This document shows, piece after piece, positions 5,713-23,419 of a stretch of DNA of 30,717 bases. The DNA comes from a virus, in IMG/VR virus record IMGVR_UViG_3300047476_000645, positions 1 through 30,717 of that record; one strand, 5' to 3'. A program made the position numbers and the translations under genes. Under the pieces are notes generated by a model. The model worked only from the letters and a program-made list of their open reading frames with translations. It ran no database searches and was not told where the DNA came from. Numbering within the stretch: position 1 is the first letter of the stretch; every line of letters starts with the position of its first letter.

Positions 5713-5719
5713 TTAATCT

Positions 5720-5819: not shown

Positions 5820-5892
5820 CTAATGCGGTGTATCCCAGCGGTACTGGTATGAAATGCAGGGTTCGACTCCCACGCCGTACACAGAGCATTAG
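5820..5892 (+). ncRNA. tRNA-like structured element without an anticodon arm
   Basis: The element folds as a three-way junction. A long stem pairs CTAATGC (5820-5826) with GCATTAG (5886-5892) and continues as GTGTA (5828-5832) with TACAC (5878-5882). Inside are a D-like arm CCAG-CGGTA-CTGG (5835-5847) and a T-arm-like hairpin GGG-TTCGACT-CCC (5859-5871) that carries the tRNA B-box consensus. No five-base anticodon stem with a seven-base loop can be drawn, so it is not a standard tRNA. It ends 3 bases before the first in-frame ATG (5896) and 39 before the likely endolysin start. It could be a decayed tRNA, an RNA processing signal, or a leader that controls the endolysin gene. Upstream bases 5792-5819 show only a GTTT...AAAC mini-stem. 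Confidence 0.45.
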
Positions 5893-5931
5893 ATTATGGG
5901 TAAAGTCCCATCGCCCCTCCACTTTCCACCA

Positions 5932-6743: not shown

Positions 6744-6903
6744 AAAACTAGGCAACAAACGAGGACTATGCGGAAAAGGAAAACCATTCCAGAAGCAGGG
6801 GCTGACTCCAACGGAGCAGAAGAAAGTAGACCTGCACCAGAAGTGGGCAAAGGAGCGATGGGAATACCTACTCTCCCTCAACAAATGGACGAGGGTCTCG
6901 TAA
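6730..6903 (+). CDS. Small basic hypothetical protein, 57 aa
   Basis: From the ATG at 6730 the product is 57 residues and strongly basic (MKPSKKLGNKRGLCGKGKP at the start), followed by one predicted helix with WAKERWEYLLSLNKW. The ORF is open from 6697, but 6730 gives a 14-base overlap with the previous gene and a sensible N-terminus. It also overlaps the next small gene by 19 bases in another frame. Basic, helical, very small: it could bind nucleic acid, but nothing proves it. Confidence 0.5.
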   Translation: MKPSKKLGNKRGLCGKGKPFQKQGLTPTEQKKVDLHQKWAKERWEYLLSLNKWTRVS

Positions 6904-7016
6904 GGTTCGGTGACATGGTGAAGGCCATGCAATACCTCACCGATGAGGTCACCAACCTACGCTATAAACTTCTCCAATACGAACTATGTCCAAAAAAACC
7001 AAGCCAAAGAAAATAA
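6885..7016 (+). CDS. Small hypothetical protein, 43 aa
   Basis: From the ATG at 6885 it encodes 43 residues with one amphipathic helix (FGDMVKAMQYLTDEVTNLRY) and a basic end. The same frame is open from 6768, but that part overlaps the previous gene entirely and has a composition (Ala/Gly/Pro/Glu) expected of an out-of-frame reading, so the short version is preferred. It overlaps the previous gene by 19 bases and the metallophosphoesterase by 31. Function unknown; a small coiled-coil partner protein would fit its look. Confidence 0.4.
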   Translation: MDEGLVRFGDMVKAMQYLTDEVTNLRYKLLQYELCPKKPSQRK

Positions 7017-7741
7017 AATTCGTCATCGTATCTGATAACCACGGAGACATGGTCGATTGGGATGCGGCTAAAAGCCTGTTCGACTTCATCCAATGGTATC
7101 AGCCAGACGAGATAATACACGCTGGAGATGGGTTCGATTTCCGCTCCATAAGAGGCGGTGCTTCACTCAACGAGCAGTCGGAGTCGCTTGAGGATGACAT
7201 CAAGTGGGGGAAGAAATTCCTCAGACAACTGAAGCCCACCAGATACCTCAAGGGCAACCACTGCGAACGACCAGAGAACATATTCTATGCTACCACAAAT
7301 GCTATCGTTAAAGACTACTGCCATCATCTCATGGAAGACATTGACAACTTCCTTAAAGAGGTTGGTTGCAAGACTATTCTCCCCTACCACGCAGACGAAG
7401 GAGTGTTTCGCCTTGGGCCAGTGGCAATCGTACACGGATATACCGTCAACCGCTATTCAGTATCTGAACACGCAGAGTTCTACGGAGTGTCGGGTGGAGC
7501 GGTCACAATGGGACACCTCCATCGCATCGCCTGTGTCAACGCAAGAAAGCACGGAGGTGTCGTTGGATTTTGCGGAGGACACCTCTCTCGTAAGCGTGAA
7601 ATGCGTTATAGCAAAAACCGACTGGGAACGAGTGAGTGGGGTACTGGCTGGCTCTGCGGATACATCCAAGGCAACGACTGGAAAATCTGGCAGATTCACC
7701 GTGTTGGTGACAAGTTCATCTACCCTCAAGACGCACGATGA
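6986..7741 (+). CDS. Calcineurin-like metallophosphoesterase
   Basis: All the metal-binding motifs are present in this 251-aa protein: DNH at 17-19 (D17, H19), AGDGFD with D48, KGNHCER with N91 and H92, VHG with H150, and MGHLH with H177 and H179. These proteins use two metal ions to cleave phosphate esters; targets in phages range from nucleic acids to proteins or nucleotides, so the substrate is open. The N-terminus is basic (MSKKTKPKKIK). The gene overlaps its small upstream neighbour by 31 bases and the next gene by 4 (ATGA). No Shine-Dalgarno precedes the ATG. A second same-strand frame open at 7287-7967 runs through it but looks like an out-of-frame reading. Confidence 0.9.
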   Translation: MSKKTKPKKIKFVIVSDNHGDMVDWDAAKSLFDFIQWYQPDEIIHAGDGFDFRSIRGGASLNEQSESLEDDIKWGKKFLRQLKPTRYLKGNHCERPENIFYATTNAIVKDYCHHLMEDIDNFLKEVGCKTILPYHADEGVFRLGPVAIVHGYTVNRYSVSEHAEFYGVSGGAVTMGHLHRIACVNARKHGGVVGFCGGHLSRKREMRYSKNRLGTSEWGTGWLCGYIQGNDWKIWQIHRVGDKFIYPQDAR

Positions 7742-8043
7742 AACCAAAGGTAAACTTCACGGAGTTGGTGAACGAACTGAACATTCGTCATCGGTACAAG
7801 CCAGTGAAGGAAGAGCCGATGCCCAAAGGATTCTTTTCATCCGCAGAGATGGCGAAGAAGTACAACACTGTCCAGCGTGTTTCTCAAAGATGGATTTCAT
7901 TCATGATGGGAGCAAACGCACTAGAGGTAAGGTTCGTAAGAAGAAGAATAAACGGAGTGTTCGTTAAGAAAATTCCTGTCTATAAATTCAAACACAAAGC
8001 CGATGAGAAAGAGTTCAAAAGCAGACTTAAAAGAAAACGATGA
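7738..8043 (+). CDS. Small basic protein with winged-helix-like region
   Basis: This 101-aa protein is not recognised as a known family. The middle (SSAEMAKKYNTVQRVSQRWI at about 34-53, then GALEVRFV-like strand and basic hairpin RRRINGVFVKKIPVYKFK) looks like a helix-turn-helix with a following wing. It ends with a run of lysines and arginines. It could bind DNA as a regulator; that is inference from shape and charge. It starts with ATGA overlap on the metallophosphoesterase stop and overlaps the next gene by 41 bases. Confidence 0.6.
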   Translation: MKPKVNFTELVNELNIRHRYKPVKEEPMPKGFFSSAEMAKKYNTVQRVSQRWISFMMGANALEVRFVRRRINGVFVKKIPVYKFKHKADEKEFKSRLKRKR

Positions 8044-8317
8044 ACTGTACAAGGGGTGCATCTTTTTGACCCCTAGGGAATGGATGGACAACGCCATCAC
8101 AGGCAAGTGCATCAACACTGGTGGCATCATCTACGACTACGACAGCCTCATCGAGGTCTACATGACCAAGGACGGCATAACCTACGACCAAGCATCGCAG
8201 GTGGTGGACTTCAACACGGAGCGAGCCATCCCCTATATGCCGACCCCACGGCCTGTCATCCAGAAGGAAGAGATTGACATCGATGACGAGGACTACGATG
8301 AAGATGACTTAGACTGA
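8003..8317 (+). CDS. Small acidic phage protein, 104 aa
   Basis: It resembles a small protein seen in many phage genomes with the core CINTGGIIYDYDSLIEVYM, then ITYDQASQVVDFNTERAIPYM at about 68-88 and a very acidic tail (DIDDEDYDEDDLD). I know no established function for that group. The acidic tail contrasts with the basic end of the gene before it, with which it overlaps by 41 bases, so the two might interact. It is the last protein gene of the plus-strand operon; tRNA-Gln begins 5 bases after its stop. Confidence 0.65.
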   Translation: MRKSSKADLKENDELYKGCIFLTPREWMDNAITGKCINTGGIIYDYDSLIEVYMTKDGITYDQASQVVDFNTERAIPYMPTPRPVIQKEEIDIDDEDYDEDDLD

Positions 8318-8322
8318 CCTAC

Positions 8323-8393
8323 ACACCTATGGTGTAACGGTAGCACAGGAGATTTTGATTCTCCTTGTCTAGGTTCAAATCCTAGTAGGTGTG
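8323..8393 (+). tRNA. tRNA-Gln (anticodon TTG)
   Basis: The acceptor arms are ACACCTA and TAGGTGT, the D-arm is GTGT-AACGGTA-GCAC, the anticodon arm is GGAGA-TTTTGAT-TCTCC with anticodon TTG, and the T-arm is CTAGG-TTCAAAT-CCTAG. Discriminator base is G at 8393. CCA is not encoded. First of a five-gene tRNA cluster at the end of the plus-strand operon. Confidence 0.92.
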
Positions 8394-8401
8394 CGTTCTT
8401 T

Positions 8402-8474
8402 GTGGGAGTGGCGAAATGGTAGACGCATCGGACTTAAAATCCGCTCGCTGTGGGTTCGACTCCCACCTCCCGCA
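8402..8474 (+). tRNA. tRNA-Leu (anticodon TAA)
   Basis: The acceptor arms are GTGGGAG and CTCCCGC (one G-T pair), the anticodon loop is CTTAAAA with anticodon TAA, and the T-arm is GTGGG-TTCGACT-CCCAC. The variable region is only about six bases (CTCGCT), unusually short for a leucine tRNA, which normally has a long extra arm. Confidence 0.88.
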
Positions 8475-8481
8475 CAATTTC

Positions 8482-8554
8482 ACGGCAGTAACTCAATTGG
8501 CAGAGTGTCAGTTTTCCAAACTGGATGTTGCGGGTTCGACCCCCGCTTGCCGTA
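8482..8554 (+). tRNA. tRNA-Gly (anticodon TCC)
   Basis: The acceptor arms are ACGGCAG and TTGCCGT, the D-arm is ACTC-AATTGGCA-GAGT, the anticodon arm is CAGT-TTTCCAA-ACTG with anticodon TCC reading GGA, and the T-arm is GCGGG-TTCGACC-CCCGC. CCA is not encoded. Confidence 0.92.
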
Positions 8555-8558
8555 TTTC

Positions 8559-8643
8559 AGAGGGTTGGCAGAGTGGTCTATTGCGGCAGTCTTGAAAACT
8601 GCTGGGTGTAACAGCCCCATCCGTTCAAATCGGATACCCTCTA
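8559..8643 (+). tRNA. tRNA-Ser (anticodon TGA)
   Basis: The acceptor arms are AGAGGGT and ACCCTCT, the anticodon arm is GCAGT-CTTGAAA-ACTGC with anticodon TGA, there is a long variable arm GGGTGTAACAGCCC as expected for serine, and the T-arm is ATCCG-TTCAAAT-CGGAT. Confidence 0.93.
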
Positions 8644-8653
8644 CTCTCGATTG

Positions 8654-8729
8654 GGGTGTGTAGTTCAAAGGTCAGAACATTCTGCTCATAACGGACAAGA
8701 TGCTGGTTCAAGTCCAGCCGCACCCACCA
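8654..8729 (+). tRNA. tRNA with anticodon CAT (Met, or Ile2)
   Basis: The acceptor arms are GGGTGTG and CGCACCC, the D-arm is GTTC-AAAGGTCA-GAAC, the anticodon loop is CTCATAA with anticodon CAT, and the T-arm is GCTGG-TTCAAGT-CCAGC. A CCA end is encoded (8727-8729); it is the only tRNA here with one. The first acceptor pair is G-C, so it is not an initiator. It could be elongator Met or an Ile tRNA that needs lysidine; the sequence alone does not decide. Confidence 0.9.
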
Positions 8730-8852
8730 ATCGCTACTGCGTCCCTAAGGGAAGAACGCAGTAACTTCATACAGGGGCTACCAAAGGTAACAACGCTAAC
8801 CCTCCCTTAACCCCACTATGCGGCAATCACTCTGCCGTTGCCAGACTCCATG
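8730..8852. terminator. Convergent boundary with inverted repeats
   Basis: This 123-base stretch separates the plus-strand tRNA cluster from the end of the minus-strand late operon and holds no gene. TACTGCGT (8735-8742) pairs with ACGCAGTA (8756-8763), with CCCTAAGGG (8743-8751) inside the loop as an alternative stem. A second hairpin CGGCA-ATCACTC-TGCCG lies at 8821-8837. Neither is followed by a clear T-run on either strand, so factor-dependent ending or RNA protection is as likely as intrinsic termination. Confidence 0.5.
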
Positions 8853-9467
8853 TCAAGAGACATACCAGAGGAGCAACGCCTCAAGCAGGATTGCACACGC
8901 AACCATAACAGCACCAGCCCTTTTGAGAAAAATAATCGGAGAGAATGCTACCACCAATACCCCAGATAACAGTAGTCCTAGACAAGCCAACGACGCTTGG
9001 AGGATTAATTTTGTTTTACGCTCTTCTCGCAGGTTGCGTTCTGCTTCTTCTCGTATTGCGACTGCTTCAGTTAGTAGTTTGTCTTTTTCTTCTACTTGTG
9101 CCCACAGTTTGTTGGTTTCTTCATAGACCTTAGCGGCTCTGTTCTTGTCTTCCTCTGCCGCCTTGAGGTCTTTCTCTCGGATGATGCGTTCGTACTCCTT
9201 GATGATTGCGTCCGTAGGCTTGCTGATACCGCTCAGTCTTTCGACTTGCCCTCTGACAATTTCTTTAGGCACTCCAGCAGGGAGGGTAGGAACGACAGCA
9301 GTGAGAGCAGAAGCAGACTCAGAGACGACTTCTTCGACCTTCGTGATGTATTTGTCCTTTTGCTCATTGTTGGAAACTACGACTGGCGGTTTGTCTTTCT
9401 CCCAAATGGCACAACCAGATTGAGTAAAAACCAGTATTGTTAAAACCAGTACATTAATTTTGTTCAT
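8853..9467 (-). CDS. Probable unimolecular spanin (outer-membrane lipoprotein with C-terminal membrane anchor)
   Basis: This protein has 204 aa. The N-terminus is a lipoprotein signal (MNKINVLVLTILVFTQSGC) with the lipidated cysteine at 19; the -3 residue is Gln, so the lipobox is imperfect. A long charged helix (about 82-152, EYERIIREKDLKAAEEDKN and onward) is a likely periplasmic coiled coil. The C-terminus has two hydrophobic segments, about 154-180 and 185-203. A lipoprotein head plus an inner-membrane tail is the plan of u-spanins such as T1 gp11, which fuse inner and outer membranes at lysis; T1 gp11 has one C-terminal membrane segment, so the pair here is unusual. It follows the holin with a 14-base overlap and is the last gene of the late operon. 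Confidence 0.7.
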   Translation of the reverse strand: MNKINVLVLTILVFTQSGCAIWEKDKPPVVVSNNEQKDKYITKVEEVVSESASALTAVVPTLPAGVPKEIVRGQVERLSGISKPTDAIIKEYERIIREKDLKAAEEDKNRAAKVYEETNKLWAQVEEKDKLLTEAVAIREEAERNLREERKTKLILQASLACLGLLLSGVLVVAFSPIIFLKRAGAVMVACAILLEALLLWYVS

Positions 9468-9771
9468 CGGCTTGGGCTTTTTGTAAAAATTTAGAGCGTA
9501 GCCAATTGAATAGTTCGGGTGATAAAGACCCAGACACGGAACACAAAACAGTCTTATAAAAGGGGTCTAGGCTTGTCTGGTGGACGGAGAAGTAGCAGAT
9601 GATGCCTACTATAGTTCCTGCCGCCACCTTCCGTATCCAGCGTGTCGTGTTGTACTTCTCATCGGTAAGGATGAGTCTAGCCAACATACCAAGACCGCCT
9701 AGAATGCCAAACACCCAGCCAGTTTTCTTGAACTCTTCTAGGATATGTTGGATGGATTGGTCATCATTCAT
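9454..9771 (-). CDS. Phage holin with about three membrane segments
   Basis: Holin of 105 aa. Hydrophobic segments lie at about 17-35 (TGWVFGILGGLGMLARLIL), 48-63 (KVAAGTIVGIICYFSV) and 70-91. The N-terminus is charged and the C-terminus is basic then acidic, the usual plan for the superfamily III (LydA-like) holins. It would form holes in the inner membrane to time lysis and, because the endolysin has its own export signal, may act mainly as trigger. It overlaps the giant gene upstream by 8 bases and the spanin downstream by 14, so the lysis genes are translated as a coupled set at the end of the late transcript. Confidence 0.78.
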   Translation of the reverse strand: MNDDQSIQHILEEFKKTGWVFGILGGLGMLARLILTDEKYNTTRWIRKVAAGTIVGIICYFSVHQTSLDPFYKTVLCSVSGSLSPELFNWLRSKFLQKAQADEQN

Positions 9772-12700
9772 ACTGTTTCATCTCCTGTTTAAGGATTTCC
9801 TCAACCGCTTCGTACTCATGGTAGGTCTCAGCCATGAAGACAGACGCAGGGTTGAAGATACGGAATATGCTCCTGCCCTTGTCGTCTATCTTGATGATGG
9901 TATACTTGAGTCTGTTCCTCACGATGACCCAGTCCTCGAAAGGCTTGTCTGTGCTAGGGCCAGAGGACTGGATGATGTCAAAGTTAGACACATCGCTGAC
10001 GGTCTTCTCTTCTGGTGACTGGCTTCTGGCTTCTTCAGTCTTAAGGGCTTGTCCTTGAGTCGTGGCGTTCTCTTCCGTGGCGGCGTTGGGGTCAACGACA
10101 GGCTTGTCCGACTTGCGGCGAACCCACAGTTGGTGACCATCCTTGCTTCGGCGTTGCTCAAAGTACTTGGAGATGATGCCCTCCTTCTGGGGGGTGATGA
10201 GCATGGACTTGGTTCTGGTTCTGCCATTGGCATCCCAGACAAGGTATCCCTTCTCTCCGTACTGACCGATACCTTCAAGTTTGTCCGCCATCAGTTGTCT
10301 GAAGAACGGCTTACCCTTGTTCTCCATGTACAGGTTCAGAACCTGCTCGGAGAAGTGACCAGCGTTAGACCAGTTGATGAGCAGACCCTGTCTAGGGTCT
10401 TGGGTAGGCAGTGACTGCTCCCCGACTCTGAACTCGTCAAACTTTGTTTTACCTCCCTCAATCATGTCGGCGGCTCTCTTCACACGCATGACATCGTCTT
10501 CAAATAAGCGTATCATGACCTGTGCTTCAGTCAGATTGTCCGTTGAAGCAAAGCGTGTCGTAGGTATCTCGTGAACCTTCTGTCCGCTCGGAGTATTGAA
10601 CCGCTCTCCCTTGAAAAAGATGGTGAACCGTTCTCCAGTCTTACCCTTTTTGTCGGTAGTAACCTCACGCTTGATGAAGTATCTTCCGTCTATGGTGTCT
10701 CTGAAGTTGGGCTTGTTCTTGTTGTCCCAATCGATGGAGGTACTTCCGTCCTTGTGCTTCCGCAGGTCTGTAATCCTAAGGTTGTCCTTCATGGACAGCA
10801 GGTTATCAAGAGCGAACGGACGAGTGCTGATGAAGCCCTGTGCGTCACGCTTGTACTTGATAAGGGATGCCTCCGTGGACAGAGCCTCGGCAAGAATGTG
10901 GTTAATTCTAGCCCACTCGTCCTTGATGATGGTGTCGCTTTGCCCGAATGAAAACTGCTCAAGGGAAGCATCATCAAGGATAGCCTTGTTCTTCTGCTTG
11001 TATCTTTTCTTGGTCTCACGAGCGGCTTGGATGTTTGAACGCTCGTTGTCCTTCATCATCTGGGTGATGGTAGGCATATCCAAGTTGAACCGTTCCTGCG
11101 GAGGAAGGTTCTCATACATCTGCTTGATGGAGTAGTTACGCTCTATGCCGAACAGCGAGTCCTCGGTATGTCTTGCGACTTCCTGCTTCCAGATGTCCAT
11201 GAAGCCCTGCATACGCACGAGCGTGTCGATGGGCAGGTGACCAATGTCACTTCTGGTGGCGAACGGAGACTTCTTTCTTGCGAGTATGGGTCTAAGTTCC
11301 TTCGGGGTGACATCAGAAACGCCAGCGTCGATGTACTTCTGAACCTGTTCTTCAGACCATCCCTTCTTCTCTGCGATTGCGTAGATACGAGCGATGTCAT
11401 CCTTGGAAAGCGTGGTGTGGATGCTGTCTCTGAAGTTAAACTTCTCACCCTTAGTGCCGACAGGAACGACTCCGTTCTTCATCAGATACATGGCCTGTTC
11501 AAGCACCTCGATTGTGTTGAGGCTTCTGTCAACTGCGTCTGGGTTCTCTTCTCTCCACTGCTTGAACTCAGCATCTGACATCTGTTTCAGTTTCTTCAGT
11601 GCGACTTCTCTGATGCCAGCATTGTCCGTAATCAAGTCCAGTGCATCCACAACGAACGAGCGTACGAAACGCTCCTTCTCAGTGGCTGTCTTGAGGTTAT
11701 CCATTATTCCGTTCGTGAACGCCTCGTGCTGTTTCATCTTCTCTTCGGGCACTCTGTTAATCTTGTCGGCAAGAAGGCCGTTGGCAGACTCCCTAGGGAA
11801 GAAGAACTTTATGAGGTGTGCGTCAGCCGCAGACATCGGCATGGACGGATTTTTCTCGTGGTACGCCCTCTTGGCATGGGCAAAGTGGATGTAGTCGGCA
11901 AGGAACACAGGTCTCTTGGAGTTTCTTGCATCCTGTCTGACGAAATTCCTTTGCTCTCCGCCTATGGTAGAAGAGGGTGCGTCATTTCCAGAGATGACTC
12001 CAGCGTTATGCGTACCCTCGGTGTAGGATGTGCTTAAGTCCCATTGTCTCCAAGAAGACTGGAACAGGTCACTGCTAATCTCTGGGAAAGAGTAGGCGAT
12101 GTACTGCGTAGAAGGGTCAGCAGGGTTAATCTCGACCCTAGAGTCCTTGATGTTCTTGAGGCCAAGGTTTCTGGCAAAGTCATCATACTGTCTGAACAGT
12201 TTTGTGATGCTGGACTTACGCAGTTTCTCTATCTCACGGAGACGCTGTCTGTCCTGCTTGGTGTTTCTTCTGGCGATGGTCTCTTGGTAGTCCAACTGTT
12301 TGTACTCAGCCACGAGACGCTTGAACTCTGCAGGAGCGTTTTCGTCTCCAGCCTTTTTGAGTATTTTTTCGTAGCGGCTTTTGAGGGCTTCCTTCTGGCC
12401 TCTAAGTTTCTTGAGTTCAGCCTCAAGTCTCGGGATGTCCTTAGGTATCTCGGCTCTATACTGTCTAAAGAACGGAAACTCAGACTGTATGTCCGTGTTC
12501 ATGTCCACCAGTTCTATGCCTCTGTGGGCAAGGTTGAGCCTGTTGGCTACGATGGCAATCTTCTCTACCGTCTCGTCCAGAGCCTTGACCGTATCCTTGA
12601 GGGCGATGCCGTCTTTGCCAAGGGAAGAGAGCAGTTCCTCGTCCTTAATCATCTGGACTGCCTCGTTGTGGTCTATGCGACCTTCCATGATGTCAGTGTC

Positions 12701-15700
12701 CAGTTTCTTGATGAAGTCTCTGTTCTTCGGTTCGTTAGCCCATCTGAAACCCGCTTCACCAAGGTTCTTTTCGGTAAGTTTGTTACGCAGATGGTGGTGG
12801 ATGGATATGTCCGTGTTGGCAGGGGTCAACTCTATGCCAAGGATGTTCTTAATCGAGATGTCTCCCTGTGAAATGCCAGCATCGTAGTAGTTCTTAAGAT
12901 TGATAAGCCTTGCCTTGAACTCTTCAGTGTAGTCCTTGACGGTTCTGTGGTACTCATGTCCTTTACCAAGAACATTGTCCACATCCACAAGGTATGACGG
13001 CTCTCCGTAGGTGACTCCCTTGCCCTGCGGACGAGATGTACGCAGTTTGTTGAAGTCGAACTTAGAGACGACATCAAAGTCGTGCAGTTTTGCGGCTTCA
13101 ATGAACGACCTTTCAGCCGTTACCTTTATGCCCTTGGCTTGCAGGTATCTCTTGGAAAGGAAGTCTATTTTGCCCTTGATGCCAGACAGGTCTTCATCTC
13201 TTCCGTACAGACCATCGTGCATCTGAGTCCACTTGTCCTGCAATACGGCAAACTTGTTTCCGTTTTCTATGAACGACCTCTGAAGTTGTTCAATCATGCC
13301 TACCACATTTCCATCCCTCGGGACAGCCATACGATATTCGTCAAAGTCTATTTCTTTAGACTTAGCAGATATACGATACATGAGTTCCTCAACACGCTCT
13401 GGACTAAAGCCTTTCATCTTATCCAGAACCTTCATCTCGTGCAATTGAACAGCCGCCGCAAGATGCATGGCCTCGGCTTCGTCAGCCGCCAGTTCAATTT
13501 CGTCTAGTTCGCTCTTGATACGCTCTATAATCTTAGACTCTTCAAGCGGCTTCTTTCCCTTAAGTCGCAGTTCGTTATTAATACGAGTCTTTTCGTTTCT
13601 GTAGAAGCCTCTCTGCTGTTTCTCAACTTCGTTAAGTTCAGCCATCAGTTTCTTAATCTGAGGGATGATGCTGTCTGCGTGAGTTCCTTCTGCAAGGAGC
13701 GTACCAAGTCTGTTCATCTCAGTAAGACGCAGACCGTTGATGAACTGGTTGAAGTTCTTGAATGAAGACTCCGCAAACTTCTCAAAAGCCTCACTGGAAT
13801 TACGACCCTTGTTGGTCGCCATTCTTGCGAGTTCTGCATTACGCTCCTTCAGTGAGCCAAACTGAGTTGTGATGATTTCTGCTCCGTACTTTTTGTCTAT
13901 TATGAACGAGAAGCCCAAGTCTTGGTTCTTAAATCTCTTGAGTCTGGTAATCTCGTCTCTGAGTTTAACCTTCTCGTCAATCGTCAGTTCTTTCTTCTTG
14001 TCCAGTTTGTCGCTCTTCTTGACACCGCTGTCGAGTTGTTCGCTAAGAGAGGCTTGTTCTGCCTGTAACTGCTCCATACGCTCAACGCTTCCGAACTTGT
14101 TGTCACGGAGGATTTCATCGACCTTTTGCAGACGCTCTTCCAACTTGGTACGCTCAAACTCGGTTATAGGTCTGGTGGCGTTAGCCTTACCAGATGCAAG
14201 TTGCTCCTCAAGTTGCTTAATCTTTGCACCGACATCGTAGCCCATCTCTGCGTTGAATATTTCCTGTGCAAGGAAGTAGTCTCCGTTTCTGAAGAGTCTG
14301 AACTTGTCGCTTGAGACTTCGCCTGTGCCTCTGGACTGCTTGGCAACCGCAAGGATAAGGTTCTTCATGTTGCCTTTAACCTCTTGGTACGGCCCCTCAA
14401 TCAGTTGTTGTGCAGGGATGTCTCCAGTTCCAATCTTGTTGCGAACAGTCTGGGTTGCTTCCTGTAGGAACAGTTCAACCGTTTCGTCTATGACGCTCAG
14501 AGGAACATCCTTAAGAGACTTCTCCCCTGTCTTTTTATCAACTTCTTCTGTTCTAAATTTGTACTCTTTTCTAGACAGAATATTTCCGTCCTTGTCGTAC
14601 ATGGCAAGGGTTCTCTTGGTGTCTCCAGCAAGTTGTGTCTCAAGAACCGTAAGGTGCGTACCATCAAAATTCCAAGCCCTCTGCACATTCTTTACGACAC
14701 CGTTTTCGTGTACGGCAATGACACCGTTTGTCTTAGAAATGTCCGTAGGCTTCCATCTGACTCCATAGAAACCTTCCTTCTCAAGTCGGTTGATGGACTC
14801 GATGTAGTTACGCTTTATCGACTCACGGATTTTAGCAAGGCTCTCCTTGCCTCCGCTGTCGTAGAAGGCATACAGTTCAACGCTTCTGGCAATGGCTTCT
14901 GGAGTACCAAGTTCGATGAAGCCCTTTGCGGACTCGTCATACAGTTTGGCTCTAATCTTATCCAGCACATCGGGGTTGATGTCCTTAATGTGGTAGGCGG
15001 ACAGGAAGTCCATGATGCGTTGCTTGGCATCGTCAGAGATGATGTTGTCAACCTCTCTGGTCTGTCTGTCCCAGATGGCTCTGGCCTCGTCAGCCTCAAT
15101 GGCTATGTTACGCTTTGATGCGACAACAGCCTCGTAGGCGTTTACGATTTCCATCATATCCTTTCTGGCGTATCCTCTGTCCGTCTTGATGAGAGTCTTG
15201 GCGAACCCGATGTTTCGTTCCATGAACGCTTTCATCATCTTGTTCTTTGCGTAGGTGGACAACACAAGGTTGTCGTCACCAAGTCTGCCTGTACCAAGGA
15301 TTGAAGCGTCAGCCAAGAAGACCAACTGCTTCTGGCGTTCAGCCATATTGTCTATGAGTCCAGCGATGCCTTGGTTCTCTCTAAGAACCCTAGCGATTAC
15401 AGCCTCAGATATGGACGCTTTGTCAGATATGCCCTGTCTGATGAGTCTTGCCTGTTCTGCAGTAAGACCACCCATGTCTTTTCTGACTTCAGCAACCCTC
15501 ATGTTTGCCTCTTCCTTCTTACCAGCCTCGACCTCCTTGTATAATTGACCCCACTTTTTGTAATTCTTGAGTGCCATGTATTCGGCCTCAGACATTTCAA
15601 CCCAGTGACCAAGTGACGGTATACCAGTCTCAGCAAGCGTCTTGGGGGTGATGCCATACTTGCTGGCGTTCTCTATGAGAGCAGAGTCAGCAGTAATCGA

Positions 15701-18700
15701 AACCTTTGGGATGTATGTTTCCCTTCCGAACGGAGCAATAAGTTTGGTCTCCATTGAGCCAACGCTCTGTACATAGGACGCAAATCCGTCCATTGAGTAC
15801 TGGGCAATTTGTTCAAGAACCTCAAGCGGTGCGTCTTGAAACTTCTCCTTAAGCACACGAACCATACGAGGAGTCATAGCCTCCTTAAACCTCTTGTGCG
15901 TCTCTGTCGTAAACACCTTCTCGTCCTTAAGGTACTTCAATGCATCATCGACCAGAGTCTGGTTGAAGTTGATGGTATCCGTTAGGCTTTTTTCAGTAAT
16001 CTGTTGTTCAAACTTCGTTCTAGGAACGACATTTCCTTGGTCATCAATCTTATACTTGAGCAGGGCTGTGATGTCATCAGAGCCAGCCCTCTTGACCTGT
16101 TCTCGGTACTTGTCCGCAATGGTCTTTGCGGGTTGGAACATGAAGTCATTCGCACCCTTGACCTGTCTGTTTTCGACAAACCGTCTAGACTCAAGGATTG
16201 CAACGGAACTGTACTCGTGACCGCTGATAGGGTTGTGGTTCATGTAGCCAACGGACTCTATTCCGTAGTCTCTGAACAACTTCTTGCTGGTAGCAGTCAT
16301 CAGCCACTCATCCATCGTAGGCATGGAAGAAGAGATGGCATCAGTGTCTCTCTGGAATAAGTCAAAGATACGGTTTCCGCTCTCATCTTTCATGCGGAGC
16401 ATATCCTCCATGACCTTTCCGACAGGAGTTCCTGTTGTCTCCGCTATGCGTCTGGAGACCATATCGACAGCCGTACGCATATCCGTACCGAACGGAATGT
16501 CTGAGATGTCTAGGTGCGACTGAGAGTCGATGTACCCGACACGCATCTGCTTGTCCTCAAAGAACCCAGCCTCATGGATGTCGGGGGTAAAGTGAAGCCA
16601 GCCGTTCTTAGATGTGTACTGGCTACCTCTTAGTGAGGGAATTGCAAACTCCATCTTGTCGGCAAGACCGTCGTCTACATAATCGAAAACTCTTGTGCGG
16701 TCTGTACGCACCTGTATCTCTGAAGACGGAGTACGGAGGGCATAAACGGCAATGTGTTCGCCTTCCTTATTTCTGTAAACCGTGTCCTTGATGATGTGTC
16801 CAGCACCGTACGGAATGATGTTTCCGTTGTTGTCTCTGCGGGTGATGGCAGGAGAGAAGTTGGCCTGTGACCGCTTGTACGCTTCGTTATGGTCATATCT
16901 GAAGCCCTCTCCGTTCTCAGCCACAATCTTGGACATTCTGTCCACACGGAAATTCTTCATTACCGTGAAGGTCTCTGGCATAGCATCACGCATCTGGAAG
17001 TCCAGAGGGGTGTTCTTCCAGCGTCTTTTCTTAGCCATCTCCTTTGTCGGGTGGTATCCGATGACAGCGTTGACGATATCTCGCTTGAGGGCGGCATCTC
17101 TTTCTCCTCCCTTTCCTCTTGAGAACAGTTTCAGTCCAGCCTCTGCATGATTGCCAAGGCTGTAATTGCTCAATAGAGCCTTGACCGCTTCTCTGAGGTT
17201 CTGCTGTGTTGTGAACAGGTTTCTGACACCCTTGTAGTGGAGGTCTCCGTCATCTATCTTGTTGTAGATGAAGTCTTCTCTACGCAGGTAAGCATCCCAG
17301 TCGAACACTTGTACGAGCAGTTTGGCTTCTCCAACCGTGTACTTCTGTATGCCATCCTTCGGCTTACCCTTAGGCTTGGTCTGGAAGTACATATTGAGTT
17401 CAACAGGAACGAACCTGCGTTGCTCGATAAAGTAACCCTTTTCTCTTCCATCATCGGTGGACTTCTCCATCGTGATGACGGTAGAACGTACGATGTTTGA
17501 AACCATGTCTGTTCTTCCGACTCTTGAGGTCTCGATGACCAAGTTAAGTTCACGGAGTCTGGTGGCAGTAGCCTTTCCAAGATACTGTTCAAACAGGCTG
17601 AGTTCCTTGGGGGTAGCCAGTCCAGTAATTCTGACACGAGGGTTACCCTGCCAGAAGGACTCCCAGAAGTCTCCAGTCTTTTCAAGACTCCATCTGCCGT
17701 CTCCTACCTCTCTCTCGACCTTGCGAGGTTTGCCGCCCTTCTTAGGGCCAAGTTCTGCGAGGTCTGAGGCAGTAACACCAGTCTCAGCCAGTTTCTTTCT
17801 GTGCTTTAAGAACCAAGCCCTCTCCTTGTTGACATCGATTACATCAGAAGGCTTTGTCGCTTCTGGGAGAACTTCCTTCTTAGGCTTCTTCTTAGGCTTG
17901 GCTGGCTGGTATCTGGCAATGCTTTCGCCCTGCTCGTTCATCAGTTCAAGTTTAAGACCACGGTCTGACGCAGGAAGAGCCATCAGTTCGTCTGCAAGTC
18001 CCGCTATTCTGGCGGACATCTCCTTGTTCACCTCTGCCTCAGTCTTTTTGGTCATAGAGCCAGACTCAATGTCTGTCTTTATGAGGTGGTCGAAATCGCT
18101 GTTAAGAAGGGTGTGGTTGTCTGCGTACTTCTTGTTGTTCAACGCCCAACCGTCATACATACCTTGTCCAAGTTCCTTCACATAATGCTTCATCAACCGC
18201 TCAAGCATAGGTATTCTGACTCTCTGCTTGGTCGTCTGGTCGATAAGGAACATATCGGGCGTGTCGCCCTTGATTAACTGAACGCCAGCCTCCTGCAGGT
18301 CTTTAGCCATCGTGTTGCGATAGAAGTCCTTCGCACCCTGTATCGCATTTCTGACAAGACCAAGGTCTCCTCCCTTGAGCAGGTAGTCCAGAGGCTTGTC
18401 TTCTACGAACCTGTTCCAGTAAGAGGCTAAGAACTCCTCAAACAAAGCGTTAAGTTCTGTGGCCTTCTCTCCACCCTTGAACCGCTCAATGGCTTCGTTG
18501 AACTTCTTGTACATACCAGACATATTCTCTGGCGTGTGACCGCCAGTTTCCTTGTCTAGGTTGAAGTATTGGTCTCTGAATTGCTCAAGAAGTGAAACAG
18601 CCTTGTCCTTAGGCATTCTGTACAACGCACCAAGGTTGTTTTCCGTGCCGACAAGGGCATCTACTGCGTGTTTTGTGAAAGCCTTTCCGTAACGCTTGGT

Positions 18701-20440
18701 AAGAAGAAGGCCGTGGAAGGTCTCTTCCGACACAGCAGACCTAGCGGCTCTGTCTGCGTTGATAAGAATGACGGACTTTCCGTCCTTGTCTTTAAGAAAT
18801 GTTATGCCACCAAACTCTGGGTTGGCAAGGTTCTGTCTTTCGTAAGCATCAAACTCGGCACTCGTAGACATCTCCTTAATCTTCTTCTCCGTAAGGATAC
18901 GGATAGGGTCATCTGGAAGCAGACGCTCGGCGGCGGCAATCTTAGACATGACGCTAAGTTGTCCCTGCGTTCCTGCTTCAGTGTGAGCATTCTCAAGAAG
19001 ACGCATAAGTCCTTCTTGGTTGTGGAAGTCGTAGTGGCTAGTAGCCCAAAGGAACTGCTTGACCGTATCTCTGACAGCATCTCCACCAGAAACGGTATTG
19101 TGAAGTACGCCTATCTGGTTGAACGCAGAACCGATGACAAAGCCAGTTCCAAGTCCGTGGTAGAGACCTTCTTCTCCGCCAAAGGCAAAGCCGAAAGCAC
19201 CACCATACATGGAAGAGTGAAATCCAACCTTAGTCGTATTCGTAGCCCACTGAACAAAAGGAGAAGCGTTTGCCGCCCAGAATGTAGCGACTTTTTGAAT
19301 AGGCTTGCTGGTAGACTCAAGGGCGACACGCTCCGACAGTGTCATACCTGCAATCTTGGGTTCTTCTGCGGCTAACTTTAATGCAGTCTCTCCAAGACGA
19401 CCAACACCCTCTGTCAGTTTAGCCGCACCCCAGACCATCGTGACCTTAGCCCAAGCAGGAATGGTTACTTGGTTTACGCCAAGACCTCCTTCGGCGGCAC
19501 GAACAAGACCTTCATTACCTTGGATTTTACCCTGTCCTGTAATATGGTGCTGGTGACCAGTCATGTCTGTCATGACCTCTCCGACACCCTTGTCAACCTT
19601 GGCAATCTTGGATGAAATCCACTCGCCTCCGTCTCCAAGTTTACCGAAACCTTCTGAGGCTTTCTTGAGTGCAAACGCACTGGCCTTCGTTAGATTTTCG
19701 CCAAGACCGACAGCCGCAGTAGCACCACGGAGACCCTTTGCGATTGCAGACTCTATTCCAAGGTTAGGAATAAGCCAAGAAGGGTCTGCGACATAAGAGA
19801 CCGCTTGAACAACAGCAGGGTTGGTCAAGTCTAAGTCCATACCTCCGACATTAATCGTAGGAGGAAGAATTATGCCCTCGTTCTGGTCTTTATGTATCAT
19901 CTGCCGAACCTTGAGAGCCTCTTGGTATGACAGGTATTCGTCTTCTGGAGTGCTGTGGTTGTTGAACAACATCTTGCTCAACCAAGAGTTCTTGTCGTAC
20001 TTGGCCTGTTCGTACATATACAGCCAGTTCTTAGTTCCAACAGCCGCACCTTCGATGCCAGAACCAACAACTTTAGGAACTTTAAGTGTAACCACATCTC
20101 CAGCAAGTTCGTACGCACCAGTAGCAAGGTCTGTGGTAGCCGCACCAACGGCTTCTCCAACCGTCTTCCACATGGACACCTTCTTTTCGTCCATGAACGC
20201 CTTATACTTCTTATAGTCCTCAAAGGGCATGACATACCCAAGATGACCATAACGCTTGTCCATCTCCGCCAGATACTGTCCCTTGAACTCGTCTGGTATC
20301 TGGTCTGGTATTTCTGCGTCTTGCTCTTTCGTCAGAGGAACTTCTGGGTTTGAAATAGCCTCTTCAGTCGGGAGTCTTAGTCCCTGCTGTGCGGCATATC
20401 TCTTGAGTTCTTCTGAACTAGAATAGGTAATTTCGGACAT
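9764..20440 (-). CDS. Giant virion-associated protein, 3558 aa, with ADP-ribosyltransferase-like segment
   Basis: One uninterrupted frame of 10.7 kb, a third of the window. Its place after two ejection-type genes and before the holin matches the largest internal virion protein of T7-like phages (gp16) or giant polyvalent ejected proteins. Visible parts: Gly-rich hydrophobic stretch at about 397-440 that could insert in membranes; at about 545-590 a metallopeptidase-like VILINADRAARSAVSEETFH whose expected HExxH reads EETFH; Lys/Pro linker near 845-857; at about 1283-1437 a segment resembling polyvalent ADP-ribosyltransferase domains (MRVGYIDSQSHLDISDI, then YGIESVGYMNHNP and ANDFMFQPA); long coiled coils near 2070-2160 and 2670-2750. 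No transglycosylase motif or T7/N4 polymerase motif set was found. The start overlaps the upstream stop as TAATG. Confidence 0.8.
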   Translation of the reverse strand: MSEITYSSSEELKRYAAQQGLRLPTEEAISNPEVPLTKEQDAEIPDQIPDEFKGQYLAEMDKRYGHLGYVMPFEDYKKYKAFMDEKKVSMWKTVGEAVGAATTDLATGAYELAGDVVTLKVPKVVGSGIEGAAVGTKNWLYMYEQAKYDKNSWLSKMLFNNHSTPEDEYLSYQEALKVRQMIHKDQNEGIILPPTINVGGMDLDLTNPAVVQAVSYVADPSWLIPNLGIESAIAKGLRGATAAVGLGENLTKASAFALKKASEGFGKLGDGGEWISSKIAKVDKGVGEVMTDMTGHQHHITGQGKIQGNEGLVRAAEGGLGVNQVTIPAWAKVTMVWGAAKLTEGVGRLGETALKLAAEEPKIAGMTLSERVALESTSKPIQKVATFWAANASPFVQWATNTTKVGFHSSMYGGAFGFAFGGEEGLYHGLGTGFVIGSAFNQIGVLHNTVSGGDAVRDTVKQFLWATSHYDFHNQEGLMRLLENAHTEAGTQGQLSVMSKIAAAERLLPDDPIRILTEKKIKEMSTSAEFDAYERQNLANPEFGGITFLKDKDGKSVILINADRAARSAVSEETFHGLLLTKRYGKAFTKHAVDALVGTENNLGALYRMPKDKAVSLLEQFRDQYFNLDKETGGHTPENMSGMYKKFNEAIERFKGGEKATELNALFEEFLASYWNRFVEDKPLDYLLKGGDLGLVRNAIQGAKDFYRNTMAKDLQEAGVQLIKGDTPDMFLIDQTTKQRVRIPMLERLMKHYVKELGQGMYDGWALNNKKYADNHTLLNSDFDHLIKTDIESGSMTKKTEAEVNKEMSARIAGLADELMALPASDRGLKLELMNEQGESIARYQPAKPKKKPKKEVLPEATKPSDVIDVNKERAWFLKHRKKLAETGVTASDLAELGPKKGGKPRKVEREVGDGRWSLEKTGDFWESFWQGNPRVRITGLATPKELSLFEQYLGKATATRLRELNLVIETSRVGRTDMVSNIVRSTVITMEKSTDDGREKGYFIEQRRFVPVELNMYFQTKPKGKPKDGIQKYTVGEAKLLVQVFDWDAYLRREDFIYNKIDDGDLHYKGVRNLFTTQQNLREAVKALLSNYSLGNHAEAGLKLFSRGKGGERDAALKRDIVNAVIGYHPTKEMAKKRRWKNTPLDFQMRDAMPETFTVMKNFRVDRMSKIVAENGEGFRYDHNEAYKRSQANFSPAITRRDNNGNIIPYGAGHIIKDTVYRNKEGEHIAVYALRTPSSEIQVRTDRTRVFDYVDDGLADKMEFAIPSLRGSQYTSKNGWLHFTPDIHEAGFFEDKQMRVGYIDSQSHLDISDIPFGTDMRTAVDMVSRRIAETTGTPVGKVMEDMLRMKDESGNRIFDLFQRDTDAISSSMPTMDEWLMTATSKKLFRDYGIESVGYMNHNPISGHEYSSVAILESRRFVENRQVKGANDFMFQPAKTIADKYREQVKRAGSDDITALLKYKIDDQGNVVPRTKFEQQITEKSLTDTINFNQTLVDDALKYLKDEKVFTTETHKRFKEAMTPRMVRVLKEKFQDAPLEVLEQIAQYSMDGFASYVQSVGSMETKLIAPFGRETYIPKVSITADSALIENASKYGITPKTLAETGIPSLGHWVEMSEAEYMALKNYKKWGQLYKEVEAGKKEEANMRVAEVRKDMGGLTAEQARLIRQGISDKASISEAVIARVLRENQGIAGLIDNMAERQKQLVFLADASILGTGRLGDDNLVLSTYAKNKMMKAFMERNIGFAKTLIKTDRGYARKDMMEIVNAYEAVVASKRNIAIEADEARAIWDRQTREVDNIISDDAKQRIMDFLSAYHIKDINPDVLDKIRAKLYDESAKGFIELGTPEAIARSVELYAFYDSGGKESLAKIRESIKRNYIESINRLEKEGFYGVRWKPTDISKTNGVIAVHENGVVKNVQRAWNFDGTHLTVLETQLAGDTKRTLAMYDKDGNILSRKEYKFRTEEVDKKTGEKSLKDVPLSVIDETVELFLQEATQTVRNKIGTGDIPAQQLIEGPYQEVKGNMKNLILAVAKQSRGTGEVSSDKFRLFRNGDYFLAQEIFNAEMGYDVGAKIKQLEEQLASGKANATRPITEFERTKLEERLQKVDEILRDNKFGSVERMEQLQAEQASLSEQLDSGVKKSDKLDKKKELTIDEKVKLRDEITRLKRFKNQDLGFSFIIDKKYGAEIITTQFGSLKERNAELARMATNKGRNSSEAFEKFAESSFKNFNQFINGLRLTEMNRLGTLLAEGTHADSIIPQIKKLMAELNEVEKQQRGFYRNEKTRINNELRLKGKKPLEESKIIERIKSELDEIELAADEAEAMHLAAAVQLHEMKVLDKMKGFSPERVEELMYRISAKSKEIDFDEYRMAVPRDGNVVGMIEQLQRSFIENGNKFAVLQDKWTQMHDGLYGRDEDLSGIKGKIDFLSKRYLQAKGIKVTAERSFIEAAKLHDFDVVSKFDFNKLRTSRPQGKGVTYGEPSYLVDVDNVLGKGHEYHRTVKDYTEEFKARLINLKNYYDAGISQGDISIKNILGIELTPANTDISIHHHLRNKLTEKNLGEAGFRWANEPKNRDFIKKLDTDIMEGRIDHNEAVQMIKDEELLSSLGKDGIALKDTVKALDETVEKIAIVANRLNLAHRGIELVDMNTDIQSEFPFFRQYRAEIPKDIPRLEAELKKLRGQKEALKSRYEKILKKAGDENAPAEFKRLVAEYKQLDYQETIARRNTKQDRQRLREIEKLRKSSITKLFRQYDDFARNLGLKNIKDSRVEINPADPSTQYIAYSFPEISSDLFQSSWRQWDLSTSYTEGTHNAGVISGNDAPSSTIGGEQRNFVRQDARNSKRPVFLADYIHFAHAKRAYHEKNPSMPMSAADAHLIKFFFPRESANGLLADKINRVPEEKMKQHEAFTNGIMDNLKTATEKERFVRSFVVDALDLITDNAGIREVALKKLKQMSDAEFKQWREENPDAVDRSLNTIEVLEQAMYLMKNGVVPVGTKGEKFNFRDSIHTTLSKDDIARIYAIAEKKGWSEEQVQKYIDAGVSDVTPKELRPILARKKSPFATRSDIGHLPIDTLVRMQGFMDIWKQEVARHTEDSLFGIERNYSIKQMYENLPPQERFNLDMPTITQMMKDNERSNIQAARETKKRYKQKNKAILDDASLEQFSFGQSDTIIKDEWARINHILAEALSTEASLIKYKRDAQGFISTRPFALDNLLSMKDNLRITDLRKHKDGSTSIDWDNKNKPNFRDTIDGRYFIKREVTTDKKGKTGERFTIFFKGERFNTPSGQKVHEIPTTRFASTDNLTEAQVMIRLFEDDVMRVKRAADMIEGGKTKFDEFRVGEQSLPTQDPRQGLLINWSNAGHFSEQVLNLYMENKGKPFFRQLMADKLEGIGQYGEKGYLVWDANGRTRTKSMLITPQKEGIISKYFEQRRSKDGHQLWVRRKSDKPVVDPNAATEENATTQGQALKTEEARSQSPEEKTVSDVSNFDIIQSSGPSTDKPFEDWVIVRNRLKYTIIKIDDKGRSIFRIFNPASVFMAETYHEYEAVEEILKQEMKQYE

Positions 20441-22614
20441 TATTTCTTCGGTTCGTTATACTTGTTGTAAATATCTGGATACTTGTCCTTTAGGCCAAGA
20501 ACAATTTGCTCAATTCTCTTGGCGGCTTGCTCCTTAGACATACCACCAGCAAGACCCTTTGTTGGCTTAATTTCAATACCTATCGCATCTGCCTTTACCT
20601 TTGCAGAATCTGCTATGAGGCTTCTTGTAAGTTCAAGCGTCTCAATGGTTTTGTCAACATCCTGTAGGTTTCTCCAGAATGTAGGTTCAGCCATCATGTC
20701 TCCAAGTCTTTGAGCGTCTTTTTCAGTTTCTGTACCCGGAGCAATGAAGTTCTTTCTGAATGTTTCAAGACCTCTCTGGTATGTCGTGTATTCAGTTTCC
20801 CATCTCGCTCCAATAAGAGGAAGGTTTTCATACCACTTCTTTTCCTTCCATAGGTTTACCATGTTGTCGATGTACTTGTCAGCCTTGTCGATGTCGATTG
20901 TGAGTTGTGTTAATTCCTCCTGTGCCTTTTCTGCGTTAATAATAGGCAGTTCAGACATCGGGTCTTCCTTGTTGTTTGTCTTGGCTCTGAAGACATAGTT
21001 TCCGTAGGTTCTTCCTTCACCAACGAACTGACGGAAGTAATTGTTTGCACCTTGACGCTTTATTCCAGCCTCAGTCGTAGGAGTTCTAGTAAGACCCATT
21101 CCCTCCAGTTCGTCCTGCGACTTTGTATTACCCTTTTCATCGGTATACATAACCTTGCCGCTATCGGTCTGCCATCTTCTCATTCCGCCAAACAGACCAA
21201 ACACCTTGTAGGCATCGTCTCTGGTCATCGGGAACGGCTGGTTTCTATCCTTGAATACCTTAAAAGCAGAGTCGTAAGCCTCATCAACCATTCTCTGGTC
21301 TGTCTTGTAGGCGACAATCTCCTTTGATGTGCCGACAACACTCTTTTCTTCAGAGATAATTCTGACACCAGTCGGGGCTGTTCTAGGAACAGGTTTAGCA
21401 ACCTCTGGCTTGATGCCAAGGCTCTTACCAACCGCTTCTTGGAACTGCGTGGTATTGGAATATCTTACGGCTATGTCATATCTGGCTGTGTCCAGTTCAA
21501 CATCCTTATTCTCACCCTTGGCTGAAGCGTTCCACTTAAACTGGTGGTCAATCGTAGCCCTTTGCTCTGGGAAGTTTCTTATCAACTGTTCATACACACC
21601 CTGCACGAACTGTTTCTTGTTCTTTGATGTGTTGTTTACGGCAGGTATGGTCGGGTCAAACTGTGCATCTCCAGACAGCGTCCGTGCTATGGTCGTAGAA
21701 AAAGGAGTAACTTTCTGTTCTCCAGTTGCAGTAACATCTTCAACCTTGAGACCGCTTTCCTTAAGGAACTTGTCGATGTCATCGTACCAGTCGTACATAT
21801 TATCTGGCGTTTCAAGCCAGCCAGAACGAACTTCCTTCTGTCCTTTGACTGTGACCTTCTCAGTAGGGACGATACCCTGTCTTGTCTGTATCATCAACTC
21901 CCTAGCCTCTTCCGTGCTTAAGGCTCTCTCGGTAGATTTAGCCTTAGCACCAGCAACCCTAGCCTCCGCTTCAAGCAACTTAAGTCGAGCAGGGCCAAGT
22001 ACCTTTTCTAAACCAAATCTATCTCTTTCAAGTTGCAGTTTTAGTGCATCAAGTTCGTCGCCCTTCTCACCACGAGCAATACGCCATTCAAGGTCTCTTA
22101 CTCTAAACTTAAAATCCTGCTCTTGTGCCGTTACTCTTGATTTTGCTTCTTCTCGTGCAAGTCTTAGTTTTTCTTCTTCAATCTCAAGACCTCGCTCTTT
22201 AGCCTTTCTATTAAACTTGTTCTCATCGTCCTGCTCAAACTTTGAATGAACGGTCAAAAACGATGTAAGGTCAGTCGTTGAAACGCCATCGACTCCGTCT
22301 GGCTGTTTCTGCGACTTTTTCCATAGTTCAACAATGTGCTGTGGTGCATCAGCCTTAGGCTTGTACGAAATCTCTCCAGTGGCATCATCCTCTGGGCCGT
22401 CCTGCTCCATGTACTGTTTAAGCACACTGTTGGCAAGGTATGAAGCCTTTGCCTTTTCTTCCTGTGTCTGCTGGTACTTATCAAGTCCTTCTGCGACATT
22501 TTTGCCAAACCCAGCAATAGCATTGGCAGTTTGTTCTGCAATTGCCCCTGTATACGGCAGGATGTTAATAGGTTGAACCTGTTCGTTTTGGTATCTTTGA
22601 AATGGTGAAGCCAT
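20440..22614 (-). CDS. Internal virion (ejection) protein, 724 aa
   Basis: I infer this role from position and composition. It lies between a short Ala/Gly/Met-rich ejection-type protein and the giant protein, as T7 gp15 lies between gp14 and gp16. The N-terminus (IAEQTANAIAGFGKNVAEGL at about 25-44) is the helical start often seen in such proteins. A long charged helix follows at about 130-245 (RKAKERGLEIEEEKLRLARE and onward), probably coiled coil. The rest is mixed and soluble, with a C-terminal helical domain. No catalytic motif was recognised. The stop overlaps the giant gene start (TAATG). The start at 22614 follows an A/T-rich leader without Shine-Dalgarno, 4 bases after the PP-loop enzyme gene's end. 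Confidence 0.65.
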   Translation of the reverse strand: MASPFQRYQNEQVQPINILPYTGAIAEQTANAIAGFGKNVAEGLDKYQQTQEEKAKASYLANSVLKQYMEQDGPEDDATGEISYKPKADAPQHIVELWKKSQKQPDGVDGVSTTDLTSFLTVHSKFEQDDENKFNRKAKERGLEIEEEKLRLAREEAKSRVTAQEQDFKFRVRDLEWRIARGEKGDELDALKLQLERDRFGLEKVLGPARLKLLEAEARVAGAKAKSTERALSTEEARELMIQTRQGIVPTEKVTVKGQKEVRSGWLETPDNMYDWYDDIDKFLKESGLKVEDVTATGEQKVTPFSTTIARTLSGDAQFDPTIPAVNNTSKNKKQFVQGVYEQLIRNFPEQRATIDHQFKWNASAKGENKDVELDTARYDIAVRYSNTTQFQEAVGKSLGIKPEVAKPVPRTAPTGVRIISEEKSVVGTSKEIVAYKTDQRMVDEAYDSAFKVFKDRNQPFPMTRDDAYKVFGLFGGMRRWQTDSGKVMYTDEKGNTKSQDELEGMGLTRTPTTEAGIKRQGANNYFRQFVGEGRTYGNYVFRAKTNNKEDPMSELPIINAEKAQEELTQLTIDIDKADKYIDNMVNLWKEKKWYENLPLIGARWETEYTTYQRGLETFRKNFIAPGTETEKDAQRLGDMMAEPTFWRNLQDVDKTIETLELTRSLIADSAKVKADAIGIEIKPTKGLAGGMSKEQAAKRIEQIVLGLKDKYPDIYNKYNEPKK

Positions 22615-22618: not shown

Positions 22619-23419
22619 TTAGTCCTTCATGTAGGATAGTGGAGTCTGGTCAGCCCAAGGATACCTAGAAGAAGCGTTTTCAACAACTCCCTTAAACTTG
22701 GGACAATAAACAAATTTCTTAGCATCTGTCCTTCTGTCGATGCAAGCAGTACAAGCGTGGACATAGTCTGCGTTAAAAGACCTGTCAGCCTTTTCTCTGT
22801 ACTTACCATCTACTTTCTCATACCTGTCTTTGTCCCAAGGGACATTGTGTGCCTCAATGTATTCCCATATGTCATCGTGAGACCAGTCACGAAGAGGAAA
22901 CATAAAATTCATCCATCCTTGTCCAAAACGGCTGTTAATTCTAGTTCCAGCGTCACCACCAAGGATAGGGTCACTGTCACATCCCTTGTGTCCAACCCAT
23001 AGCATATCCCAGTTTGCTTGCAGACCTAGTTGTTTAGGACGATTAAGAATGTCAATTGCACAAACCCACGGCTTTCCTTCTACAGGAGGAGTAATCCCAG
23101 TAGGACAGGTAATGGTAGATGTGTTAAGAGCGTAAATATTTTGAACCTCAAACTCATCATCTGTCTGTTGAAACAGAGAATTGCACGGACTCCAAGAATA
23201 GACTTCAAGTCCGTAGTCAGCGATTACTTTGTTTTGAAACGAGTACTTGGATGGTTGCCACGGTTCTTTGAAAAAAACAACAGGCATCTTAACGCCAAGA
23301 GTATGGAGAATGTGCAAAAGAACCATAGAGTCCTTTCCTCCAGACCAAGCCAATACGGACTTATTAGGAACTGAGAGGCCAGCCCTAATTAAATCAATTG
23401 TTTTTTCCAATTTGTTCAT
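22619..23419 (-). CDS. PAPS-reductase-like PP-loop enzyme
   Basis: This 266-aa protein belongs to the adenine-nucleotide alpha-hydrolase (PAPS reductase) family. The PP-loop SGGKDS is at 26-31, followed by LHILHTLGVKMPVVFFKEPW. Several cysteines are spaced through the protein (CPTG near 110, CDSD, and CTACID then YCPK near the end). The C-terminal ECGLHxG motif of true assimilatory CysH is absent, so sulfate reduction is doubtful. Members of the family also activate nucleotides for tRNA thiolation or DNA phosphorothioation (DndC type). The position is odd: between two ejection-protein genes of the late operon, so it is made with the virion. It starts on a TAATG overlap with the upstream gene. 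Confidence 0.82.
   Translation of the reverse strand: MNKLEKTIDLIRAGLSVPNKSVLAWSGGKDSMVLLHILHTLGVKMPVVFFKEPWQPSKYSFQNKVIADYGLEVYSWSPCNSLFQQTDDEFEVQNIYALNTSTITCPTGITPPVEGKPWVCAIDILNRPKQLGLQANWDMLWVGHKGCDSDPILGGDAGTRINSRFGQGWMNFMFPLRDWSHDDIWEYIEAHNVPWDKDRYEKVDGKYREKADRSFNADYVHACTACIDRRTDAKKFVYCPKFKGVVENASSRYPWADQTPLSYMKD

Follow-up and report, generated by a model that had tools for sequence, protein, structure and literature searches.

The window, a stretch of 30,717 nucleotides, carries a block of late genes on the minus strand that begins with a capsid gene fragment and several head and tail genes and continues through a tail protein (25923-27533), a protein with a glycine-rich C-terminal domain (24694-25920), a 141-aa protein, and a 281-aa protein (23419-24264). 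The block ends with a PAPS-reductase-like gene, a 724-aa protein (20440-22614), a giant protein of 3,558 aa (9764-20440), a holin-like protein directly downstream of the giant (9454-9771), and a putative spanin-like (Rz-type) membrane protein (8853-9467) assigned by reading its sequence. In relatives, genes for the terminase, portal, scaffold, and an SU10-type capsid protein lie upstream of this set. Judged by its genes, the window is probably a fragment of a short-tailed bacterial virus from an uncultivated podovirus lineage. It also holds six tRNA genes (Arg, Gln, Leu, Gly, Ser, and Met, at 5719-5793 and 8323-8729), five of which form one cluster on the plus strand.

The giant begins with an ATG that shares one base with the stop codon of the 724-aa gene (TAATG), and its 3' end overlaps the start of the holin-like gene by 8 nt. 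With an intact frame and no internal stops, it is a genuine gene, and it is conserved along its full length in uncultivated phages from IMG/VR, at 77% identity in a partial relative (L002), 55% in L067, and 32 to 41% in the others. Comparison with L002 over 3,089 codons gave a pN/pS of 0.21, indicating purifying selection. The initial observation that a single reading frame covers a third of the window was therefore borne out. The giant makes up 35% of this 30.7-kb virus record and about 23% of a related, complete-looking genome of 46.7 kb; the ends of that genome overlap by 244 nt, 243 of them identical, and a gene of this kind would account for roughly a quarter of such a genome. Among sampled relatives covering the region, its size ranges from 1,757 to 3,836 aa. 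Neither the giant nor the 281-aa protein found a match in INPHARED, a collection of annotated phages, by megablast or tblastn, and bacterial genomes searched for prophages yielded no relative. Its C-terminal third, sought as an independent unit, occurred only in the same contigs and in short fragments.

The gene order that marks the podoviral ejection triad, in which a small, a medium, and the largest late gene lie side by side, is found in the window, with lysis genes next in line, and also in T7 (14-15-16), P22 (7-20-16), N4 (52-51-50), SP6, phiKMV, and P-SSP7. By position, the 281-aa protein, the best conserved of the three, falls in the gp14 slot expected for an outer membrane pore, the 724-aa protein in the gp15 slot expected for a periplasmic tunnel, and the giant in the gp16 slot; the giant also comes after the gp14- and gp15-slot genes in sampled relatives covering the region. 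For T7 and P22, the occupants of these slots have an established role as ejection proteins (PMC8954989, PMC8402733), and N4 and DEV possess a matching trio (PMC12633501, PMC10925440). The PAPS-reductase-like gene (22619-23419, minus strand; Pfam E 5e-12, 7 Cys) separates the gp14-slot gene from the gp15-slot gene; as it is missing from that position in L002, L003, L004, and L007, it appears to be an inserted moron. One 88,287-bp contig, IMGVR_UViG_3300010970_000150 (L003/L070), contains two gp14-like genes separated by 44.5 kb and a pair of distinct giants of 3,511 and 2,586 aa, and for this reason appears to combine the genomes of two related phages in a single record.

All three proteins of the window trio (281, 724, and 3,558 aa) are free of cysteine. 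The giant has no in-frame TGT or TGC codon, the other two frames having 100 and 170, and the chance of such an absence is about 2e-11 if Cys is taken to occur at the 0.69% seen in the remaining genes of these phages. Across 25 chosen giants, totaling 73,302 aa, we counted 10 Cys, against about 500 expected at the rate of these phages' other genes. The pattern extends to known systems: the gp15- and gp16-type proteins of T7, SP6, phiKMV, P-SSP7, and N4 have no Cys in 12,774 aa, P22 gp7, gp20, and gp16 have none each, and neither do the first 1,000 to 1,200 residues of nine schitovirus virion RNA polymerases (vRNAPs). Several Cys are present in other large proteins, both of the virion and of replication; small capsid or coat and scaffold proteins may also be Cys-free, so this composition supports ejection without proving it. 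The signature was derived in this analysis and is not a published definition; the window trio shows it. Lack of Cys in such giants had been noted earlier and taken as a sign of a vRNAP (PMC10747016), the only prior mention among the open-access literature searched. Most relatives have one further Cys-free open reading frame of 533 to 946 aa downstream of the giant (L003, 20826-22841; L006, 18864-20558; L007, 21281-24121; L057, 12626-14227), which the window lacks; it could encode an accessory fourth ejected protein.

Within the giant, residues 100 to 760 are common to the whole family, even in members only 20 to 23% identical. The first part of this region (residues 100 to 470; 19031-20143, minus strand) is glycine-rich around residues 401 to 445 and has no strong transmembrane helix by hydropathy; we propose that it may serve as a docking or inner membrane part. 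A zincin-like domain follows at residues 540 to 710 (18311-18823, minus strand), with an EExxH motif (E572, E573, and H576) and a downstream E668/E669 pair. Members of a sister clade that align with this domain have HExxH and an EE pair about 95 residues further on (18/18 sampled), and the 16 members without HExxH comprise 11 with EExxH, as in the window, 4 with GExxH, and 1 with AExxH. The two groups are split by a branch with 100/100 support in an unrooted tree of 34 members, all of which retain E573, H576, E668, and E669. Taking HExxH as ancestral, because it is the canonical zincin motif and the tree carries no root, the alignment indicates that the clade of the window has lost the first zincin histidine and that its predicted metal site is altered. 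The combination of HExxH with a downstream Glu that defines an MPTase-type zincin metallopeptidase does not occur in the window protein, and on its motif the domain is filed here as zincin-like rather than as an active zincin. In one relative, DUF5700, a putative zinc peptidase family, gave a weak match at this region.

Structure prediction covered residues 470 to 1650 and 1195 to 1475 and returned models of low confidence (pLDDT 58 to 60). The larger model (pLDDT 58) aligned with a zincin catalytic domain over 145 residues (Z 5.1). Its best structural match fell on a beta-rich domain at residues 952 to 1185 (16886-17587, minus strand), tentatively WYL-like because 87 residues aligned with a BrxR WYL protein at Z 8.1; this resemblance may reflect only a common barrel. 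A tentative ART/RES-like fold occupies residues 1265 to 1430 or thereabouts (16151-16648, minus strand), of which residues 1272 to 1431 aligned with NatT in both models. The dedicated model matched NatT (Z 4.1), MbcT (Z 3.3), and tankyrases (Z 2.2 to 2.8), all NAD-using enzymes of the ART/RES fold, at Z scores that are low throughout. Profile comparison of this region with the HGT-type ART of relatives was not significant, and we therefore treat the assignment as a lead only. The window protein has Gly at a position of the ART-like region where Glu is common; given this substitution and the lost histidine, both the zincin-like and the ART-like domain may be inactive here. Further along, a coiled coil is indicated at about residues 2590 to 2765 (12146-12673, minus strand), and consensus lines define a small conserved C-terminal domain at residues 3490 to 3558 (9767-9973, minus strand), these last 70 or so residues resembling the C terminus of the other, distant clade. 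The named domains leave about 60% of the chain, mainly residues 1 to 470 and 1430 to 3490, with no assignment beyond the coiled coil.

Searches of the giant against Pfam, PHROGs, NCBIfam, and PADLOC returned nothing usable, and Pfam recognizes no domain in it; a sequence search of the PDB gave coiled-coil and chance matches only. Foldseek found nothing in the PDB below E 0.7 for the predicted models, and the best BFVD matches were proteins of uncultured phage. The first-pass annotation had suggested a polyvalent protein with enzyme-like segments separated by coiled coils, to be checked by structure prediction and fold search. What can be named in the window protein itself is an altered-ligand zincin-like domain and a weak ART/RES-like fold; the proposed separators come down to one indicated coiled-coil stretch, and the fold search across the modeled regions produced the low-Z zincin, WYL, and ART/RES matches above.

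The polyvalent part of that description draws firmer support from relatives, whose giants in the same slot carry recognized ART, GNAT, and helicase/RadC domains. One such giant contains ART-PolyVal (L050, Pfam E 3e-12), and a distant member combines an SNF2-like helicase with RadC in a Cys-free protein of 3,257 aa (L069). In the HExxH clade, GNAT was found in 5/14 members (best E 4e-11) and ART-PolyVal in 1/14. ART-PolyVal, GNAT, SNF2 helicase, and RadC all belong to the polyvalent-protein repertoire described by Iyer et al. in 2017 (PMC5512222), which also places an MPTase domain in the N4 vRNAP. At least two distinct effector or enzyme domains in a late-gene context are present in L050, L069, and the GNAT/ART members, and the window has two tentative ones. 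A phage-integrase gene lies near the L069 giant (3995-13768; also 2166-3458), and that phage may for this reason be temperate. Because the domains differ among relatives, the gp16 slot looks like an exchangeable cargo position in these cases. A more ambitious, two-part proposal is that the gp16-slot protein is a multi-effector delivery vehicle with swappable cargo (zincin, ART/RES, GNAT, helicase/RadC, and, in N4, RNA polymerase) and that the cargo of this lineage is a NAD-using or protein-modifying effector, with a re-purposed metal site (EExxH), that acts on the host within the first minutes; taken jointly, we think this rather doubtful.

Operon position and the Cys-free signature strongly favor the reading that the giant would be packed in the virion and ejected. 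We consider it probable that the giant is a third ejection protein, in the slot of T7 gp16 and N4 gp50, of a polyvalent form that lacks an RNA polymerase. Counted against this reading are the lack of detected sequence homology to the gp16-type proteins of T7, P22, SP6, and P-SSP7 or to the N4 vRNAP N terminus, the low-confidence models with their low Z scores, the substitutions in the zincin-like and ART-like domains, the occurrence of Cys-free small capsid and scaffold proteins, and the share of the chain that carries no assignment. Comparison of the giant family with the gp16-type proteins of T7, SP6, P-SSP7, and P22 by hmmsearch was not significant, and the known members are themselves highly divergent (PMC8954989). 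Overall, the initial observation was right, and its interpretation, only partly supported, was broadly correct.

A cryptic virion RNA polymerase deserves consideration because the giant matches N4 gp50 in size, place in the operon, lack of Cys, and presence of a zincin-type motif, and the same inference was made before for the Cys-free giant of StenR_269 (PMC10747016). The giant would then be a diverged N4-type vRNAP transcribing early genes. However, searches with Pfam PF00940 and with the polymerase domain of the N4 vRNAP drew no match from the giant or from 12 related records. The controls were positive: PF00940 recovered T7 and N4, whereas the N4 domain recovered three distant schitoviruses, down to 25% identity. 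A lone BLAST match to the N4 vRNAP N terminus (E 0.001) was discounted, as it had an hhalign probability of 1% and no significant hmmsearch score. We regard a hidden polymerase as very unlikely, in agreement with the absence of polymerase motifs first read from the sequence. The accompanying claim that the giant holds no transglycosylase agrees with the lack of any Pfam, PHROGs, or NCBIfam match, a result with which a diverged transglycosylase is also compatible.

The giant might instead be a purely structural or channel component of the gp16 type at the inner membrane, its zincin-like and ART/RES-like domains being non-enzymatic relics or scaffolds. Loss of the first zincin ligand in the entire clade (16/16), the Glu-to-Gly change in the ART-like region, and the long helical and coiled-coil stretches would all suit such a role. 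The other zincin motif residues are nevertheless invariant in 34/34 members, the giant far exceeds channel-only gp16 proteins (609 to 1,337 aa), and relatives have recognized enzymes in the same slot, all of which make this explanation improbable. Placement outside the capsid, as a giant tail appendage or fiber, could be argued from the presence of a very large late gene adjoining tail genes and from the length of some tail appendages, but the giant follows the gp14- and gp15-slot genes, is predicted to be helix-rich, and is Cys-free like known internal proteins, and the gene at 24694-25920, with its glycine-rich C-terminal domain, is a better fiber candidate. We give an external location almost no credence.

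As a third ejection protein, the giant would be packed in a few copies above the portal together with the 281- and 724-aa proteins. Upon adsorption, the trio would pass unfolded through the tail, and the observed absence of Cys may serve to avoid disulfides in the oxidizing periplasm. By analogy with T7 and N4, the 281-aa protein would form an outer membrane pore and the 724-aa protein a periplasmic tunnel; the giant would dock on these proteins at the inner membrane through its conserved N-terminal part. The remainder, in which long helical or coiled-coil linkers accompany the zincin-like and ART/RES-like domains, could refold in the cytoplasm, where the predicted domains, partly recognizable at the family or fold level, would act on the host or on entering DNA within the first minutes.

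These data describe a large variant of the podoviral polyvalent-type ejection protein, which, like the accompanying 281-aa protein, is unmatched in the annotated phage collection. They separate two categories that phage annotation has already equated (PMC10747016), the "giant Cys-free late protein" and the "virion RNA polymerase," and suggest that podoviruses use the position of the third ejection gene for interchangeable early effectors. Screening large late proteins for a lack of Cys provides an easy test for ejected proteins, applicable to any phage genome. That a whole clade has lost one zinc ligand but kept the other motif residues turns the role of an ejected zincin-like domain into a concrete question.

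Among known systems, the N4 vRNAP gp50 of Schitoviridae, which acts with gp51 and gp52, is also the third and largest gene of its trio, encodes about 3,500 aa (PMC12633501), belongs to a set of three Cys-free proteins, and has an HExxH-type domain. The window giant differs in having no RNA polymerase domain and no detectable sequence homology to gp50, and its zincin-like domain is N-terminal (540 to 710) rather than placed after the polymerase (2124 to 2375). T7 gp16, P22 gp16, SP6 gp37, and phiKMV gp37 share its operon slot after gp14- and gp15-type genes and its lack of Cys, but the window giant is 2.7 to 5.8 times longer, with no recognized transglycosylase or detectable sequence homology. 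Polyvalent proteins (PMC5512222) are likewise large, late, and multidomain, with parts comparable to its zincin-like and ART-like regions, whereas the window giant has no Pfam-recognized domain and a substituted zincin ligand. The 2,270-aa protein of podophage StenR_269 and its Zobellviridae counterparts (PMC10747016) are giant, Cys-free, and late, with no recognized domain; the StenR_269 protein was proposed to be a vRNAP, and its comparison with the window, made only through tblastn of INPHARED, gave no match. The closest named phage by terminase (31%), C75C1 (OQ984151; L156), has consecutive Cys-free late proteins of 2,769, 375, and 1,343 aa (38751-39484/1-7576, 7573-8700, and 8707-12738), all annotated as hypothetical. 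Its giant differs from that of the window in lying upstream of the smaller proteins and lacking HExxH, and its 1,343-aa protein has a sole match, to the distant member L055 (E 2e-6). The Cys-free trio of C75C1 is a candidate ejection set in an already deposited genome.
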